Source: Chrysochromulina parva (taxonomy: Eukaryota; Haptophyta; Prymnesiales; Chrysochromulinaceae). Taken from it: a stretch of 10,968 bases of DNA. Positions within the stretch are counted from its first letter, which is position 1. Each line of letters begins with the position of its first letter. A model generated the notes under the pieces. The model had not been told where the DNA came from, did not search any database, and was given only the letters and a program-made list of their open reading frames with translations. Location: NCBI GenBank assembly GCA_002887195.1, contig PJAB01002017.1:1-10968 (forward strand). Direction: 5' to 3'. The position numbers and the translations under genes are program-made. This document shows positions 2,537 to 10,667 of this stretch, piece after piece.

Positions 2537-4707
2537 ATGGCGTCGAAAGTCGGAGGCAATTACGACTCCGTCTCTCGGCTCTCCTCCGTCTCGTCCAAGT
2601 CCGGACGGCCCACCATCAGCAGCTGCAGATCCTCGCGAAAGTCCACGACCCGAGACGGCACCGCAGAGTACAGCGCAGCGCTCCTCGACCAGGAGATGCC
2701 TGGCGCAGTGGAGGATGGCGGCGCCGTCGGCGCCGGCGCCGGCGGACTTGGCGAGAGCCGGCCAGTGCCCAGCCTCTTCGCGAAGGAGAACTGTGCTCTC
2801 GTCTGCCACTACATTTGCATCGGCGTCGTCAACGGGCTCCTCCAGAACGCGCTGCAGCCCTATTGCCAGTACGTGGTGCACGGCGCCCCCAACCAGTGCG
2901 CGACGCTGGCGACGTTTGTCAACCTGCCGTGGGGCTTCAAAGTCTTCTACGGCCTGCTCTCGGACGCGGTGCCCATCTGCGGGATGCACCGCAAGCCGTA
3001 CTTGATCCTCGGGTGGTTCCTCACCTTCCTCGGCTCGCTCTTCATCGCTCTGCTAGGCGAGTATGGCGTGCCGCTGCCGCTCGAGCTGATCGCGGGGATT
3101 TTCCTCGCGATCACGTTTGCGTACATCATCGCCGACTGCGCAGCCGATGCGGTGTGCGTCGCGTGGACCAACTTCGAACCCGAAGAGACGCGCGGCTCCC
3201 TCATCACGACGGCCTACCTCATTCGGTTCATCGCCAACATCCTCTCCTCCTCCGTGCTTGCGTTCATGTTCAACGGGCCGCCGACCGAGGGCTCGTTCTC
3301 ATGGGGGCTGACCACCTCGCAGCTCCTGTGGATCGTCGTGGGCACGGTGGCGCTGCTCATGTTCCCATCCCTAATTTGGATGAAGGAGCCCCAGGAGGAG
3401 CTGCCCGAGATGCCGATCTGCGAGCGGCTGATCCAGTTCCGCGACCTGATGGCGCAGCCTGCGGCGTATCGGATCGCGCTTTCGATGACCGGCCTCACGA
3501 CGCTCTCCCTCGTCACAAACAACGCCTCCAACAACGCGAACGCCGCGTGGTTCCACATGACCCCACTCCAATTCGGCTTGTCGTCGGCGATCAACTGTGT
3601 AGTGCTCTCGTATGGCATGTGGGCCTTCAAGCGCTATATGCTCAACGTCAACTGGCAGCTCTCTTTCGCCATCGGGATCATCGGCATGCAAATCCTCGGC
3701 CTCGTGTACCTGCTCACCATCTACGTCGGGATCTTCCGCAACGGCTGGTGGATCGTCTTCACGAGCCAGGACCAAGAGCTCGCGTGCGTGCTCCTCCGAT
3801 TTGCCTTCTGTGTGAATCTGAGCGCATCTGAGTGCATCTGAGTGCATCTGAGTGCAACTGAGTGCATCTGAGTGCATCTGTGTGCGTCATTAGGTACACG
3901 CTCATCTTTGCTATCGGAATCGTCATCATCCCTGAGATTGCCACCCCCGGGTTCGAAGGGATCGTGTACGGCGCGAGTACGCCTGCTCGCTTTCCACAGC
4001 CCCCCAATCGCATACGCGGGCTAGCGATGCTTCCCACAGCTCGCTTTCCACAGCCCCCCCCCCAATCGCACACGCGGGCTAGCGATGCTTCACTTGCCTC
4101 TAGCGGCTCACTCAGAACGGCTCCCTTGCCTTGCTTTCCCGCCGCCGCCGCTTCTGCCCGCTGCCGCTGCCTCCGCTGCCGCTGCCTCCGCTGCCTCCGC
4201 TGCTGCGGCGGCTGCTGCTGCTGCCGCCGCCGCCGCTGGTGCTGATGCTACAGACCTGCGGCCGCGCGAGCCACTTCGAGTCTCGTCATTTCAAGTCTCC
4301 TCACTTCGTCACCTCGCCTCTTCGAGTCTCGACCGTCCGCAGTCACCACATACCAAAACTGCTCACAAAACATCACGGCCGTGCTGAACAATCTGCTACT
4401 CGCGATCTGGCAGTCGAACACGAGCCAAGAGCAACTGGAGAGCGATACGCCGGAAGTGAAGCGCAATATGGCGTTCCTAACGGTGCTGACAGTGCTCGTG
4501 GCACTCTCTTCTCTCTTCGTCCTGCCGTTGCTGCCCTCGCAGAAGCCGGAGATCGCGCGGCTCAAGACGCAGCCGGGTTCCATCGTGATGGGCAACCTGA
4601 TGATGCTGCTGCTGGTCTTCATGATGGTCGTAGGCACCGTTTTCTCTTGCCTGCCCATCTTCCCGTCCACCGCATGCCTCATCATCGCCGGAGGCTCCGG
4701 CTGCTAA
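2537..4707 (+). CDS. BT1 / folate-biopterin transporter family membrane protein, three exons
   Basis: Proposed CDS is join(2537..3783, 3894..3976, 4343..4707), 564 residues. ATG 2537 has a strong context (GCCATGGCG). Residues 1-80 are a Ser/Gly-rich hydrophilic tail, and the rest is a polytopic major-facilitator-type membrane protein. Diagnostic for the BT1 family are WGFKVFYGLLSD followed by AVPICGMHRKPYLILGW (residues about 132-160), and TSQDQELA (about 409-416). Splicing joins QELA to YTLIFAIG and later GIVYGA to ITTYQN, both expected in this family. The final exon supplies hydrophobic helices (MAFLTVLTVLVALSSLFVLP; MMLLLVFMMVVGTVFS) and ends at TAA 4705-4707. Known members of the family carry folates or pterins, and plastid relatives occur in algae and plants. 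The substrate cannot be read here, and I see no clear plastid transit peptide. Confidence 0.85.
3784..3893 (+). other. Transporter intron 1 with 10-bp minisatellite
   Basis: 110 nt, GTGCGTG...GTCATTAG, phase 2. Removal restores QELA-YTLIFAIG, typical of BT1 proteins. The intron start (GTGCGTGCTCCTCCGATTTG) loosely resembles the exon-2 start (GTACACGCTCATCTTTG), a possible old duplication. Most of the interior is a minisatellite. Confidence 0.85.
3811..3886 (+). repeat. 10-bp minisatellite, about 7.5 units
   Basis: Repeated AGTGCATCTG units, with variants AGCGCATCTG, AGTGCAACTG and edge copies TGTGAATCTG and TGTGCG. Each unit boundary makes CTGAGTG, hence TGA. Period 10 places it in all frames. 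Confidence 0.9.
3977..4342 (+). other. Transporter intron 2
   Basis: 366 nt, GTACGCC...GTCCGCAG, phase 1. Splicing gives VYGA-ITTYQN, matching family expectation, while reading through gives a Pro/Arg/Ala low-complexity peptide. It holds a 54-bp tandem duplication with two extra TTTCCACAG sites, a CTG/CCG triplet block (about 4135-4250), and short TTCGAGTCTC-type repeats (4267-4332). Confidence 0.8.
3985..4091 (+). repeat. Imperfect ~54-bp tandem duplication in intron 2
   Basis: Two copies start GCTCGCTTTCCACAGCCCCC, at 3985 and 4039, and both continue through AATCGCAxACGCGGGCTAGC and GATGCTTC. The second copy has a longer C run. Each contains a pyrimidine-CACAG sequence that could act as a decoy or alternative 3' splice site. 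Confidence 0.9.
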
Positions 4708-6469: not shown

Positions 6470-9400
6470 ATGGCGACCGTACTGTGCGACCTCGTCAGCC
6501 TCCTCCCGAGGTGCCGCTGCTGCTGCTGCCTCCGTGGCCAGGAGGACCGAGAGCCCTTGCGCGCGGCGACCTTGACTGCCGGCATCTCCTCAAGTGATCC
6601 GAAACCCTTTGGCCACGGCCTGCAGCGCTCGGCGAACGAGGTGACCGCAGAGGCCATCCGAGCCCAAGAGTGGTGCTTGGAGAACCTCGCCGAGCCGCAG
6701 GCGAAGAACGCACCTCGTGAGGAGGACGATGGGCGGCGGCGGCATACGCATCGCAAGCAGCGCCGACTGGAAGCCTCGAGTGGAGTGGAGCTCGCTGCTG
6801 CGGCGGGCAGCAGCACGACGACGTGGGAGCTGCCCGATGGCCCGGCTGAGGCGCACCTGGATGCGGCAGTGGCCGCGCTGCTGCCGAAACTCGAGGCTAT
6901 CCCGAGCGGTGCGCTCATCACGAAGGTCAGCAGCATGAGCGGCAATCTATCCGAGCTCCTCGCGGTCGCGCAGCTCGTCGCGGACCGTGTGAGTACCGAG
7001 GGCGCGGTGCTCGTGCGTGCCGGCTGCTTCGCGTGGCTCGCGGCCGCACTGCGCCGCACCGACGTGCTGAGCAGTGCGGCCGCGGCGCACCGGCTGTGCT
7101 ACGCCACCCGATGCGTGCTCGAAGCGTGCGCCGCCACCGCGAGCGCTTCGACACCGACGGGAGTGCAGGCGACGTTGCTCGTACGCTCCCGCTCCGCTCT
7201 CCGACGCCTGCACGGCGAGTGCATGCAAGTGCTCACCACGGCGCCTTTCCCCACAGGTACGCTCGGCGCTCTGCGACGTCTCGACGATGAGTGCAAAGGG
7301 CGATAGCCCGACGAGCCTCGCCGTTGGCCTGTGCGGTCTCCTACGGCGTCACGACGACTTTGGACCTTTGTGCATGGACGCCTTGCATGCGTTGGCTCTC
7401 TCCATCCAGCTTGGTGGCGGCGGAGCGGCCACGGCAGCCCTGAGCGCTGCCCTGAGCGCTGGGGCCGTCGAGCTGTCGCTCGAGTGGGTAGGCCGACGCG
7501 GCGGCGGGGCGCTGGCGGAGCGGGAGATGCAAGCGGCGGGCGCGGCGGTGCTGGCTGCGACCTTCGGTGCGAGGACGGCCGTTGGGGGCTCCGCTGAGGA
7601 GGAGGGTGGCGCGGAGGAGGGTGGCGGGCGGCTCGCCCAGGCGCCCGCGACGGCGCTCGCTCGGGCGCCCGCGACGGCGCTGCGCTCCGCGTCGCCTGCT
7701 GCCGATGCGAGTGCGCCTGACGAAACGCGCCGCCGTGGGCACCGGGGCGAGCCTGACGAAACGCGCCGCCGTGGGCACCCGGGCGAGCCTGACGAAACGC
7801 GCCGCCGTGGGCACCCGGGCGAGCCTGACGAAACGCGCCGCCGCGCCGCTCTCCTCCGAAGCGCAGCGCAGCGCCTCGTGAGTGCGGGAGGCGTCGGGAT
7901 CATCGGGAGCGCGCTGCATGCGCATGCCAACCCGAGTGCCGCCACCGACCACTTGGTGCTCGCACTCCTAGGAGCGTACCGAGCGATCGCGCCCACGTTT
8001 GCGGACTGCTGGGCGCAGCTCGAAGACGCAAGGGTGCTGCAGGCCTGCACCGGCATTGTGCTGGCTGCGTCCTCGGGTACGCCTTTGGGCGGCGGTGCGA
8101 GCGCCGCATGTGCTGATGGAGTTGATGGAGCCCACCGCGGCAGAGGAGCACAAGGGATGGCCGTTACGTCCGTTGGTAACGGGCGCGATGCTTTGAGTGT
8201 CCTTCGATCCCGCGCGTCCCGCCATGCATGTGCTCACTACGGCGCGTCCCGCCATGCAAGTGCTCACTACGGCGCCACTCCCCCCACAGGTGCCTTGAGT
8301 GTCCTTCGATCCCGCGCGTCCCGCCATGCTGCCAAGGCCTCGCTCCACCTGCTGTGCGCCGCCCTCTTGATGCGCACGCACGGCGGCACTCCGCGAGGCG
8401 CCGTATCGGGCGTCTCGGGCACTCCGACGCACTCGTGCGCGCGCGGCGCTGGAGAGGGCGCCGTCTCGGGCGGGCTCGGTGCTCCTTTGGCGCAGTCGTC
8501 CGCGGCATCCATGGCCCTTTCCTCGGCCGTGCTGCAACTGCTGGCGGCGCTCGCGCGGCTGGCTGTGGAAACGCGCCACGACGCGCCCAAGTTGCTGGGG
8601 GATCTTGAGAGGGCGGCGCCGGCAGCCGCGGCCGTGCCGCACGTCCTTCGTGGCGATCGCGAGGGTGAGGGCACCTAATGACCCTCGATTGCTCTCCTAA
8701 TGACCCTCGATTGCTCTCCTAATGACCCTCGATTGCTCTCCTAATGATCCTCGATTGCTCTCCTAATGATCTTTGATTGCTCTCCTAATGACCCTTGATT
8801 GCTCTCCTAATGACCCTCGATTGCTCTCCTAATGATCCTCGATTGCTCTCCTAATGATCTTTGATTGCTCTCCTAATGACCCTTGATTGCTCTCCTAATG
8901 ACCCTTGATTGCTCTCCTAATGACCCTTGTGCGGATCGCGAGGGTTCGCTGCATGCGAGTTCTGCGCGCTCCTCGAGGCTAGCATGCAAGTGCTCACCAC
9001 GGCGTCATTTCCCCACAGGTGCGCGGGCTGCATGCGAGCTCTTCGCGCTCCTCGACCCCTCAGCGGCACCGCCCAAGGGCATCGTCAATGCGCTGGTCGC
9101 CGCGGCCCGAAGCACTCGAGAGGATCGAGAGGATGAGGACGAGGGCGGCCAGGGTGGCCAGGGAGGTAAGGGCGGCAAGGGCGGTTTGACGGACTGTGGG
9201 AACGCGAGTCGCGATGCGCACGTGGCGCCGCCCTGCATGCAAGTGCTCACCACGGCGCGATTTCCCCACAGGTGTGTGGTGTGCCGCGCTTCTGAGCCTG
9301 TGCTGTCGCCCCCGCCCTATCGAGTCGGCCGCCGCCACGTCGCAGTCTCATCAGGCCTTCGAGGCGTTGGCGAGCATTGCGCTTCACAAGAGCGACACGT

Positions 9401-10667
9401 CTTCACAGCAGCGCTACACGTCTTCACAGCAGGCGCTGCCTCTGAGCTTGCTGTCGGTGGCGGCATGCCTCGCTGTGCTGCCACCGACGCGAGCGGCCGA
9501 GCTGGCCGACTCTCTCTGTGAGGCCGAGATCGATATCTGCTCTCGCCCCGCATGCAAGTGCTCACCACGGCGCCCTCCCGTCCCCACAGGTGAGGCCGAG
9601 CTCGGACTCCTTGATATGATTCGATGGGCTCTCGGCCCCTTAGCCGCTGGCGTGCGCACGGGCGGCGCGGCTGTTAATCGGCACGCTGTGAATCGGCGCG
9701 CCGCCGCCCCCGCTGCCGCCGCCCCCCTCGGCGCCGCCGAGGGCAGTGATGCGCCGGGGGAGCTGCCTCTAGGCACAAGCCCCCGTGCTCTGGCTGCCTC
9801 ATTGCGCCTCGTGAGCGCGCTGCTCCGATATGACGGCGCACCGCGCCGGCAGGCTTACATCGAGTTGCCCATCCTCGGACGACCCGCAGCGCTCGCGAGC
9901 TTATTGGGCCGTGCCGATCTGAGCGCCGTCCCGAGCGTGCAGGCGGCGGGTTGCGCTCTTGTGCGCGTCCTCCTCACCAATGCAGGCAGCGGCGGCGGCG
10001 CTGGCGGCGGCGGCGGTGCTGGCGGCGGCGGCGGCGCTGGCGGCGGCGGCGGTGCTGGCGGCGGCGGGCTCCGCCACTCTCTTTCAGAGGGGGGGAGCTG
10101 TTGCGGCCTGTCGTCGCGCCGTGGCTGCGAAACTTCGTCAACTGCTTCGTCAACTGCTTCGTCGGCGCTCGATGAGTACTTCGAGGCCGCGCTCGCGGCG
10201 CTCGTCGCCCATGGCCATGATGGCCGGAGCGCCGCGTCCCTCGAGATCGCGTGCGACGCGTCGGAGGTGCTCGGCCTCTTCGCACTCCTCGAGCCTTGCA
10301 TGCAAGTGCTCACTACGGCGCCATCCCCCCACAGGTGCTCGGCGTCTTCGCCACCCGACAGGCGGGCGCCCTCCATCACAAAGGCGCCCTCGTCGTCGGC
10401 GCCGTCGTGGGCGCTCTCGAGGCTCACGGGCGCACGTCGACCGAGGCGGCGCGCGCTGGCTGCTACGCGCTGCGCGCCCTCTGCCTCGCGCGCAGTGACC
10501 AGGGCGATAAGCGAGCGCGCCTGGCGGCACGGCAGCGCCTCGACGAGCTGCGCTCGATGGAGGGGGCTCGACACCTCAAGGCGACACTCGACGCGCAAGG
10601 GCACAAGCTGCCGCGCCCGCTGCGCACGTCATGCGTAGAGCTACTCCAGGATATGGGCGCAAAGTAA
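6470..10667 (+). CDS. Large armadillo/HEAT-like helical repeat protein, seven exons
   Basis: Proposed CDS is join(6470..7180, 7257..8175, 8290..8664, 9019..9165, 9272..9517, 9590..10266, 10335..10667), 1135 residues, stop TAA 10665-10667. All junctions keep frame. Examples are GDREG-ARAACELFALLD, DSLC-EAELGLLDMIRWALG and CDASE-VLGVFATRQAGAL. The product is dominated by short Ala/Leu-rich helices typical of ARM/HEAT solenoids (residues 124-220, and VVGALEAHGRTSTEAARAGC near the C-terminus). The N-terminus has a Cys cluster (PRCRCCCCLRG, residues 13-23), which might be lipidated. Other traits are a charged segment (80-100), a 12-residue repeat PDETRRRGHxGE in exon 2, an acidic GGQ/DED linker and a period-6 Gly/Ala linker (about 9998-10070). 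ARM/HEAT proteins usually act as scaffolds; I cannot name a partner or ortholog. The start has good context (CCACATGGCG). Exon 2 has an unresolved frame problem at 8077-8182. Confidence 0.7.
7181..7256 (+). other. Armadillo-like gene intron 1 (module copy A)
   Basis: 76 nt, phase 0. The 5' site GTACGCTC at 7181 is repeated as the exon start GTACGCTC at 7257. The likeness continues for about 40 bp with small gaps, both copies ending GAGTGCA. The 3' half is the shared module at 7221-7256. The join gives ATLL-VRSALCDVSTMSAKG in the frame that stays open downstream. Confidence 0.8.
7221..7256 (+). repeat. Introner-like 3' module, copy A (36 nt)
   Basis: Starts GCATGCAAGTGCTCACCACG, then GCGCC and TTTCCCCACAG. 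CTCAC fits a branch-point consensus, with the A 21 nt before the intron end. Confidence 0.92.
7715..7845 (+). repeat. 36-bp in-frame tandem repeat, 3.6 copies
   Basis: Units begin at 7715, 7751, 7787 and 7823 (the last is partial, 23 bp). They start GCCTGACGAAACGCGCCGCC and encode PDETRRRGH(R/P)GE. Copies are almost identical, so the expansion is recent. The last unit runs directly into the helix AALLRSAAQRLVSAGG. Confidence 0.93.
8176..8289 (+). other. Armadillo-like gene intron 2 (module copy B, doubled)
   Basis: Called as 114 nt from GTAACG (8176) to CCCCCCACAG (8289), phase 1. The exact 5' site is uncertain. Segment 8191-8227 is a copy of the downstream exon start 8293-8329 with 36 of 37 bases identical. 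By that alignment the expected 5' GT would fall at 8188, where the sequence reads AT. GTAACG at 8176 and a GC site at 8183 are alternatives. The length is a multiple of three without stops, so retention is also possible. Confidence 0.6.
8223..8289 (+). repeat. Introner-like 3' module, copy B with a partial extra copy
   Basis: The complete module is 8253-8289 (CATGCAAGTGCTCACTACGG, then a C-rich end with CACAG). A 5' fragment with one change (CATGCATGTGCTCACTACGG) lies at 8223-8242. A 30-bp tandem duplication including GCGCGTCCCGC made the two. Confidence 0.9.
8675..8929 (+). repeat. 22-bp minisatellite, about 11.6 units, with higher-order pattern
   Basis: Units begin CTAATGACCCTCGATTGCTC at 22-bp spacing from 8675. 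Four types differ at the CCCTCG positions (CCCTCG, TCCTCG, TCTTTG, CCCTTG). Units 3-6 show these types in that order and units 7-10 repeat the order, indicating an 88-bp block duplication. Every unit carries TAATGA. Confidence 0.95.
8982..9018 (+). repeat. Introner-like 3' module, copy C (37 nt)
   Basis: Same GCATGCAAGTGCTCACCACG start, spacer GCGTCA, end TTTCCCCACAG. Confidence 0.92.
9166..9271 (+). other. Armadillo-like gene intron 4 (module copy D)
   Basis: 106 nt, GTAAGG...TTTCCCCACAG, phase 1. The join is GGQG-GVWCAALLSLCCRP, moving into the frame that stays open for the next helices. The 5' part sits in GGC/AAG-rich sequence and, unlike its neighbours, shows no clear copy of the downstream exon. 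Confidence 0.75.
9235..9271 (+). repeat. Introner-like 3' module, copy D (37 nt)
   Basis: GCATGCAAGTGCTCACCACG, spacer GCGCGA, end TTTCCCCACAG. Confidence 0.92.
9518..9589 (+). other. Armadillo-like gene intron 5 (module copy E)
   Basis: 72 nt, phase 1. The 5' site GTGAGGCCGAG (9518) is identical to the downstream exon start GTGAGGCCGAG (9590), and similarity continues for about 10 more bases. The length is a multiple of three with no stop, so a retained form would add 24 residues. The spliced form reads ELADSLC-EAELGLLDM. Confidence 0.82.
9550..9589 (+). repeat. Introner-like 3' module, copy E (40 nt)
   Basis: GCATGCAAGTGCTCACCACG, a longer pyrimidine segment (GCGCCCTCCCG), end TCCCCACAG. 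Confidence 0.92.
9998..10070 (+). repeat. GGC-rich 18-bp repeat encoding a Gly/Ala linker
   Basis: Units GCTGGCGGCGGCGGCGGT/C, about four copies, encode AGGGGG within the armadillo-like protein. It is likely a flexible linker between helical blocks. Confidence 0.85.
10267..10334 (+). other. Armadillo-like gene intron 6 (module copy F)
   Basis: 68 nt, phase 0. The 5' site GTGCTCGGCCTCTTCGC (10267) matches the exon start GTGCTCGGCGTCTTCGC (10335) with one difference. Splicing moves to the only frame open to the end of the gene (SE-VLGVFATRQAGAL). Confidence 0.85.
10298..10334 (+). repeat. Introner-like 3' module, copy F (37 nt)
   Basis: GCATGCAAGTGCTCACTACG (T where most copies have C, shared with copy B), then GCGCCATCCCCCCACAG. 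Confidence 0.92.

Follow-up and report, generated by a model that had tools for sequence, protein, structure and literature searches.

Short insertions sharing one core and flanked by long target duplications appear to become introns or in-frame codons in the haptophyte Chrysochromulina parva

The host gene and its six introns

The window, by which we mean the whole stretch of 10,968 nt analysed here (contig PJAB01002017.1), holds a gene interrupted by six introns (Table 1), with a BT1-type transporter and a MOSC protein as its neighbours in the Pfam annotation. The nearest named relatives of the MOSC protein include the prymnesialean haptophyte Haptolina brevifila (48%) and, also at 48%, a pelagophyte, and the other window protein searched has Prymnesium polylepis, likewise prymnesialean, among its nearest named relatives (56%). 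An Rfam search of the window gave no match, and PF00016 (the rbcL family) gave none in the assembly. The contig begins with 89 C (positions 1–89), possibly an assembly or sequencing artefact.

Table 1. Coordinates of the host gene, its introns and the repeats within them
Feature	Position	Strand	Description
Host gene	6470..10667	+	1135 aa with six introns removed; 278 aa unspliced
Intron 1	7181..7256	+	7181–7220, gapped copy of downstream exon; 7221–7256, core, tract and acceptor
Intron 2	8176..8289	+	donor uncertain; core doubled in 30-bp tandem (8212–8275); acceptor 8289
5' copy of 39-nt duplication	8189..8227	+	copy of 8291–8329, 97% (repeat family D10)
Intron 3	8665..9018	+	donor 8665 by reading frame; core 8982; acceptor 9018
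Intron 4	9166..9271	+	core 9235; acceptor 9271; donor 9166 one of several open choices
Intron 5	9518..9589	+	15-nt exon copy (9518–9532 / 9590–9604); core 9550; acceptor 9589
Foreign 19-nt stretch in intron 5	9524..9542	+	identical to exon downstream of element copy on C1387 (L120)
Intron 6	10267..10334	+	17-nt exon copy (10267–10283 / 10335–10351); core 10298; acceptor 10334

The 1135-aa reading sets the donors at 7181, 8176, 8665, 9166, 9518 and 10267. This protein matches no family in a Pfam search, and the protein search returned P0001 (741 aa) as its single relative, in two segments of 45% and 37% identity. Against P0001, junctions 2 and 3 are aligned ungapped, junction 1 shows as a gap of three residues, and a long gap ends directly past junction 4. 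The alignment reaches junctions 1 to 4 and is colinear at three of the six junctions with this one relative.

The first-pass annotation had reported a shared 3' module in each intron, and all six are present, the core of intron 2 starting with CATGC and not GCATGC. It had also held that introns 1, 2, 3, 5 and 6 begin with a copy of the downstream exon, so that the donor GT duplicates the first GT of that exon. The exon copy exists in all five (gapped in intron 1), and the donor claim holds for three of the five: within the window, a duplicated donor is seen only in introns 1, 5 and 6, where the donors 7181, 9518 and 10267 are frame-compatible. The intron 1 duplication is gapped, with a score of 12, and about 1% of re-paired flanks are equally good. 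In intron 2, the upstream copy has AT where the exon's first GT would be, frame-compatible donors include 8176, 8197 and 8230, and straight read-through is also open. In intron 3, positions 8948–8976 duplicate exon 9027–9055 (29 nt, 93%); when all GTs up to 340 nt from the core were enumerated, the frame was kept only by those at 8643, 8650 and 8665, and all three precede both the duplicated stretch and a minisatellite (22 bp x 11.5). For intron 4, a comparison of the flanks found no exon duplication, in agreement with the annotation. Because stops are rare in the GC-rich host gene, frame enumeration in the window alone is too permissive.

The minisatellite inside intron 3 occupies 8674–8927, and two others, with units of 10 bp each, lie at 1259–1382 and 3807–3885. 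The units of the arrays at 8674–8927 and 1259–1382 hold CTAATGAC / CTGATGACC, branch-site-like in look, and the unit of the third reads TCTGAGTGCA.

One core and three layouts across the genome

The family core is about 24 bp long (GCATGCAAGTGCTCACCACGGCGC) and contains CTCAC, which we take to be a putative branch-site-like motif. Its 16-mer, GCATGCAAGTGCTCAC, occurs exactly at 720 places in the 45-Mb genome (386 + 334), the 24-mer with up to three mismatches at at least 1791 (at least 896 + at least 895), and the core followed by CCCACAGGT within 8–34 nt at 319 (167 + 152); the reversed control gave 0 for each pattern. The expectation that a genome search for core and acceptor end would find further copies was thereby borne out. 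The copies are spread over many different contigs, and similar introns stand at many unrelated gene positions, as in introners (319 core-to-CCCACAGGT places; frame test on 54 read copies).

Including the window, 127 copies were read with their flanks, some of them selected for an acceptor or for layout B. Of the 720 places, 100 were taken up, and C68 was dropped from these at a contig edge; the core-only sample comprises 99 copies (L009–L092). Copies L093–L108 came from the list requiring CCCACAGGT, and L109–L118 from the layout-B list, in which six of ten loci are without the exact 16-mer and so fall outside the 127. Since L093–L118 were chosen for acceptor or layout B, layout proportions refer to the core-only sample alone.

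Three layouts can be told apart. In layout A the element ends in a pyrimidine tract and CACAG, and the duplicated exon would supply the GT; in layout B the element would bring the donor and the duplicated exon the AG; in layout C the duplication is present with neither site, and the net length would have to be a multiple of three. By label, the 99 core-only copies comprise 61 with tract and acceptor (52, plus 9 with another core nearby), 9 of layout B (8, plus 1 with a core nearby), 1 with both sites and 28 with neither (23, plus 5 with a core nearby). These labels come from a regular expression that misfiled several copies: L058, L072 and L091 were placed among C and three L042 copies among tandem A, and L061 and L110, labelled as having both sites, were read as B with the AG possibly in the duplication.

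An element made of branch region, tract and acceptor, completed by a long duplication that serves as donor, was the architecture proposed in the first-pass annotation, and it is the commonest layout genome-wide; as a general account of a half-intron introner, it covers one outcome, the same core having two others besides. Of the 127 read copies, 95 have an acceptor-like AG no more than 45 nt away. When the 5' intron part is aligned with the downstream exon, 65 of these 95 have an anchored duplication, that is, one starting exactly at the AG boundary, vs. 0.6% for re-paired exons and flanks, and the duplicate starts with GT in 54 of the 65. In the core-only sample, an anchored duplication is found in 46 of 70. 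With tandem-flagged copies removed, 59 anchored copies remain, 51 of them starting with GT, with duplications of 10–47 nt and introns of 57–99 nt; the extremes of 56 nt and 121 nt are one tandem copy (L048). Perfect duplications reach 47 nt in L052, 30 nt in L102 and 35 nt in L106. Window intron 4 is among the 30 of 95 acceptor-bearing copies in which the anchored duplication is absent.

Lengths modulo 3 are evenly distributed in the 65 anchored copies (23/21/21). The codon model used for phasing was trained on the neighbouring genes and also on long ORFs from the tested loci themselves. Among the 31 copies with a confident phase and a length not divisible by three, 26 agree with excision and 4 with retention; for all 35 phased copies of such length, the figures are 28 and 6. 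From codon phase, A copies are predicted to be spliced out of the mRNA, with the element predicted to give the acceptor and the duplication (10–47 bp in non-tandem copies) the donor. The ends of the element, GCATGC... and ...CCCCACAG, are not inverted copies of each other on reading. The tract before the acceptor varies even among young copies, and a test of local copying by same-contig tract similarity was not significant (p = 0.08), so neither points to a master copy or a local source. An acceptor variant, ...CCCTAATTAG replacing CCCCACAG, is common to two neighbouring copies at L044 (2892 and 3015, reverse strand) and to one on another contig (L071, C184). The element also turns up in a second data set: a layout-A module with acceptor and GT lies at 4495–4545, right at the end of a contig catalogued as viral (L119, IMGVR_UViG_3300027760_000958), which may be a misfiled algal or a chimeric contig.

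Layout B reverses the division of labour. Here the element starts GTACGTTGATTGCC / GTACGTTGATTGCCACTGATGACC and carries a donor, and what is duplicated is the last part of the exon upstream, supplying the AG. Heads of this type number 132 genome-wide with up to two mismatches, and the duplications measure 27–34 bp (27 nt in L013, 33 nt in L087, 34 nt in L114). The exact pattern of donor, core and acceptor in one element occurs at three places genome-wide: L110 is a B copy with its acceptor in the duplication, C486 looks like a full element, and the end of the third match departs from the pattern. L024, with a donor-like GTACGT start plus an acceptor, may also carry both sites, so that such elements are not entirely missing. 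The layout-B intron of L072 holds an internal array (ACTGATTGAC) similar to the window minisatellites.

Copies of layout C are apparently kept as codons, in either orientation. Among those with a clear duplication, the net length is a multiple of three in 13 of 16 (p = 1.2e-4), vs. 21 of 60 A copies (Fisher p = 0.0014). The exceptions are L058, L075 and L091. Visual reading finds B signals in L058 and L072 and an A signal in L091, and without these three the count becomes 12 of 13 (p = 1.7e-5), L075 being the exception. At the C loci, taken as 6-kb pieces, the long core-spanning ORF that codes best runs sense in L015, L021, L022 and L045 and antisense in L018, L023, L027 and L029; L047 and L019 have no clear ORF through the core, the duplication of L045 is weak, and L019 is without one. 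These best ORFs read the core in two of the three sense frames and in two antisense frames. The firmest antisense in-frame case is L023, where the core stands at residue 994 of a 1535-aa ORF; a SAM domain precedes it, as does an SH3 match below threshold, and EF-hands follow it. At the other antisense loci, Pfam gave a marginal ABA_GPCR match for L018, a low-complexity match for L029 and none for the L027 ORF.

The codons of the flanks place 7 of 13 C copies in antisense, vs. 3 of 35 A/B copies (p = 0.0018), by strand calls with some noise in them (antisense for 2 of 29 A copies and for 1 of 6 B copies, with the tie L042 counted as antisense); without tandem copies, 5 of 9 C copies are antisense (p = 0.005). 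For L018 and L021, flank codons and best ORF give opposite strands. At L022 (2227–5859), in an SMG8/9-like host, a 48-bp duplication has ACAG|GT in both copies and the net length is 84; it could be a spliced intron of AGGT type or 28 added codons. Rickettsia palindromic elements are also short mobile sequences kept in frame in proteins, and they resemble this family in that retention; they are bacterial, palindromic and not introns.

Junctions, descent and possible mechanisms

The junctions bear on how the copies were made. At the 3' junctions of C copies, target and element end overlap by 2.27 nt on average vs. 0.32 at random (11 non-tandem copies, with L021, L029, L058, L072, L075 and L091 left out; p = 5e-5), and for 14 copies in which filler is scarce the overlap on the 5' side is 1.43 vs. 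0.49. The stretch just before the core tends towards GCC(C/T)T in 45 A copies. In intron 5 this stretch is a mosaic, joined to the foreign piece where both the window and C1387 read CCGAG, and about 15 nt are similarly shared by L042 and L058 upstream of a B-type head. Judging from these shared stretches, the sequence before the core can be inherited, intron 5 being the one firm case, for which we infer the direction of transfer. In L021, L029, L042, L048, L070 and L088, the element and its duplication are repeated in tandem, as if minisatellites or intron doublets grew from an initial insertion.

We consider it probable that the family consists of very short copy-and-paste insertions, an introner family, made with duplication of the target, found in three layouts and subject to selection after insertion. 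The sequences themselves show the duplication, the three layouts, the way the duplicate begins precisely at the splice boundary and the predicted continuity of frame after excision. Copies sit between two target copies of 10–47 bp, as would be expected at a staggered cut that was filled in. Insertion would come first, at the DNA level and blind to orientation, and selection would then keep those copies that leave the mRNA unchanged (A, B) or the length in frame (C). Where an element has one splice site and the duplication contributes its partner, splicing would give back the original mRNA without change. With both sites in the element, a long duplication would stay behind in the mRNA; half-introns alone would thus be invisible, which would account for the near absence of full elements. 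Under such selection, A and B would be common, the full form rare and C mostly in frame.

Among the alternatives, template switching during repair or replication, in which a broken or stalled end copies part of another intron copy via microhomology and rejoins upstream of its point of departure, so that a duplication with a templated insert results, is one that we hold possible though doubtful. It accords with the overlaps at the C 3' junctions, the variable element ends, the presence of both orientations and the join of intron 5 at the shared CCGAG. Taken alone, however, it does not explain hundreds of uses of the same 24-bp core, nor why A copies (61 of 99) outnumber C copies (28 of 99, tandem-flagged copies included in both), although the exact 3' end of A should be the rarer product.

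A cut-and-paste DNA transposon, that is, a MITE-like introner with target-site duplication, would also leave a direct duplication on both sides and occur in both orientations, and such elements are known for other introners (in the available text of PMC9860276). We regard it as unlikely, in that the duplications here are variable and measure 10–47 bp in 59 non-tandem anchored copies, vs. 3–9 bp in the part of PMC9860276 at hand, and the ends are variable with no inverted termini on reading. Slightly less likely again is local tandem duplication of an existing intron end with the start of its exon, as in the potato precedent described in the accessible portion of PMC4974935. Nine core-only A copies do have another core within about 100 bp (L039, three on L042, L048, two on L070 and two on L088), but the other 52 core-only A copies stand without a neighbouring core, and the family is scattered over many contigs. 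A route in which excised introns are spliced back into mRNA, reverse transcribed and recombined, as proposed for Micromonas (PMC3879977, in the text available), is the least likely: A and B ends do coincide with splice sites and 32 of 35 A/B copies are sense, but it predicts whole introns, in sense only and with no exon duplication, vs. the halves, duplications and antisense in-frame copies observed, and insertion appears to be tied neither to splicing nor to strand, which argues against it. Rogers-type duplication, with both sites from a duplicated AGGT segment and no foreign insert, does not fit, as every copy has a foreign core (by construction of the search), L022 being the nearest case.

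Within the preferred reading of copy-and-paste insertion with target duplication, there is roughly an equal chance either way that the copied molecule was an end-fragment of an intron, with its splice-site end fixed and its other end variable, placed by target-primed reverse transcription rather than by switching between DNA templates. Variable duplications, truncated 5' ends and a fixed 3' end are LINE-type target-primed features; layout A fits them, and B and C end elsewhere. A profile search for RVT_1 gave five matches in the genome. More speculatively, intron end-fragments, either excised or as their DNA, may be re-pasted continually at staggered cuts in either orientation, with tens of bases duplicated, the survivors being introns completed by their target or new codons, which pass on part of a host exon. 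If so, a single kind of mutation would lead either to a new intron or to an insertion in the protein.

Versions of the locus lacking the insertion were sought with two DNA queries, and among the best 40 of 658 and the best 40 of 81 matches none spans an empty site; these matches are element copies, one low-complexity stretch and other short partial matches. Phage records queried in the same way held no such version.

Known introners and the meaning of the family

Splice-site co-option from target duplications, at the 5' or the 3' side, and elements with no site are both described in the accessible text of PMC9860276, in different species and families and with duplications of 3–9 bp. Symbiodinium introners carry the 3' site and Chrysochromulina introners the 5' site, with 4-bp duplications in both (same source, same portion). 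Our family is like these in that one site lies in the element and the other comes from the duplication, the spliced mRNA would be unchanged and many unrelated positions are occupied; it is unlike them in its duplications of 10–47 bp and in the one core that serves both modes as well as in-frame insertions. The first-pass annotation did not know this architecture as a described type, yet a 5' splice site drawn from the target duplication was already known from Symbiodinium; its emphasis on a long duplication is upheld by the comparison with the 3–9 bp of earlier introners (both from the part of PMC9860276 available).

The nearest match to layout A is the potato RdRp gene, where one intron arose by tandem duplication of the 3' part of an intron and the 5' part of an exon (Rogers model), such that the new intron holds copied exon; that is a single locus beside its parental intron, whereas here the family is dispersed (PMC4974935, available text). 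Daphnia neointrons, attributed to staggered breaks, share a direct repeat between intron end and adjacent exon, but their repeats are 4–12 bp and, in the available portion of PMC4202315, the new introns are not described as one repeated family. Micromonas introner elements are likewise repeated introns in an alga, and what is accessible of PMC3879977 reports them only in transcribed regions and in sense orientation. Amoebophrya introners are also repeated introns with direct repeats at exon boundaries, though of 3–5 nt and with inverted repeats of 8–20 nt (PMC7789003, in part), unlike this family.

In the available text of the literature searched, which included PMC9860276, PMC12768974, PMC7789003, PMC4202315, PMC4974935, PMC11453091 and PMC3879977, we found no introners with duplications longer than about 12 bp, and no dispersed family in which long duplications, in-frame copies and a single core for every mode come together. 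PMC9860276 surveys Chrysochromulina families among others, and this family may be listed in its supplementary tables. What looks new here is the length of the duplications and the mixture of modes.

The bulk origin of introns is an old open question, and in this genome introns appear to be arising in large numbers along an uncommon path. With hundreds of insertions of one core, many of which, among the copies read, still show the duplicated target, the birth of introns, the choice of splice sites and the in-frame alternative could be compared within one genome. If the reading is true, the length of the target duplications would be the reason for elements to bring no more than half an intron.
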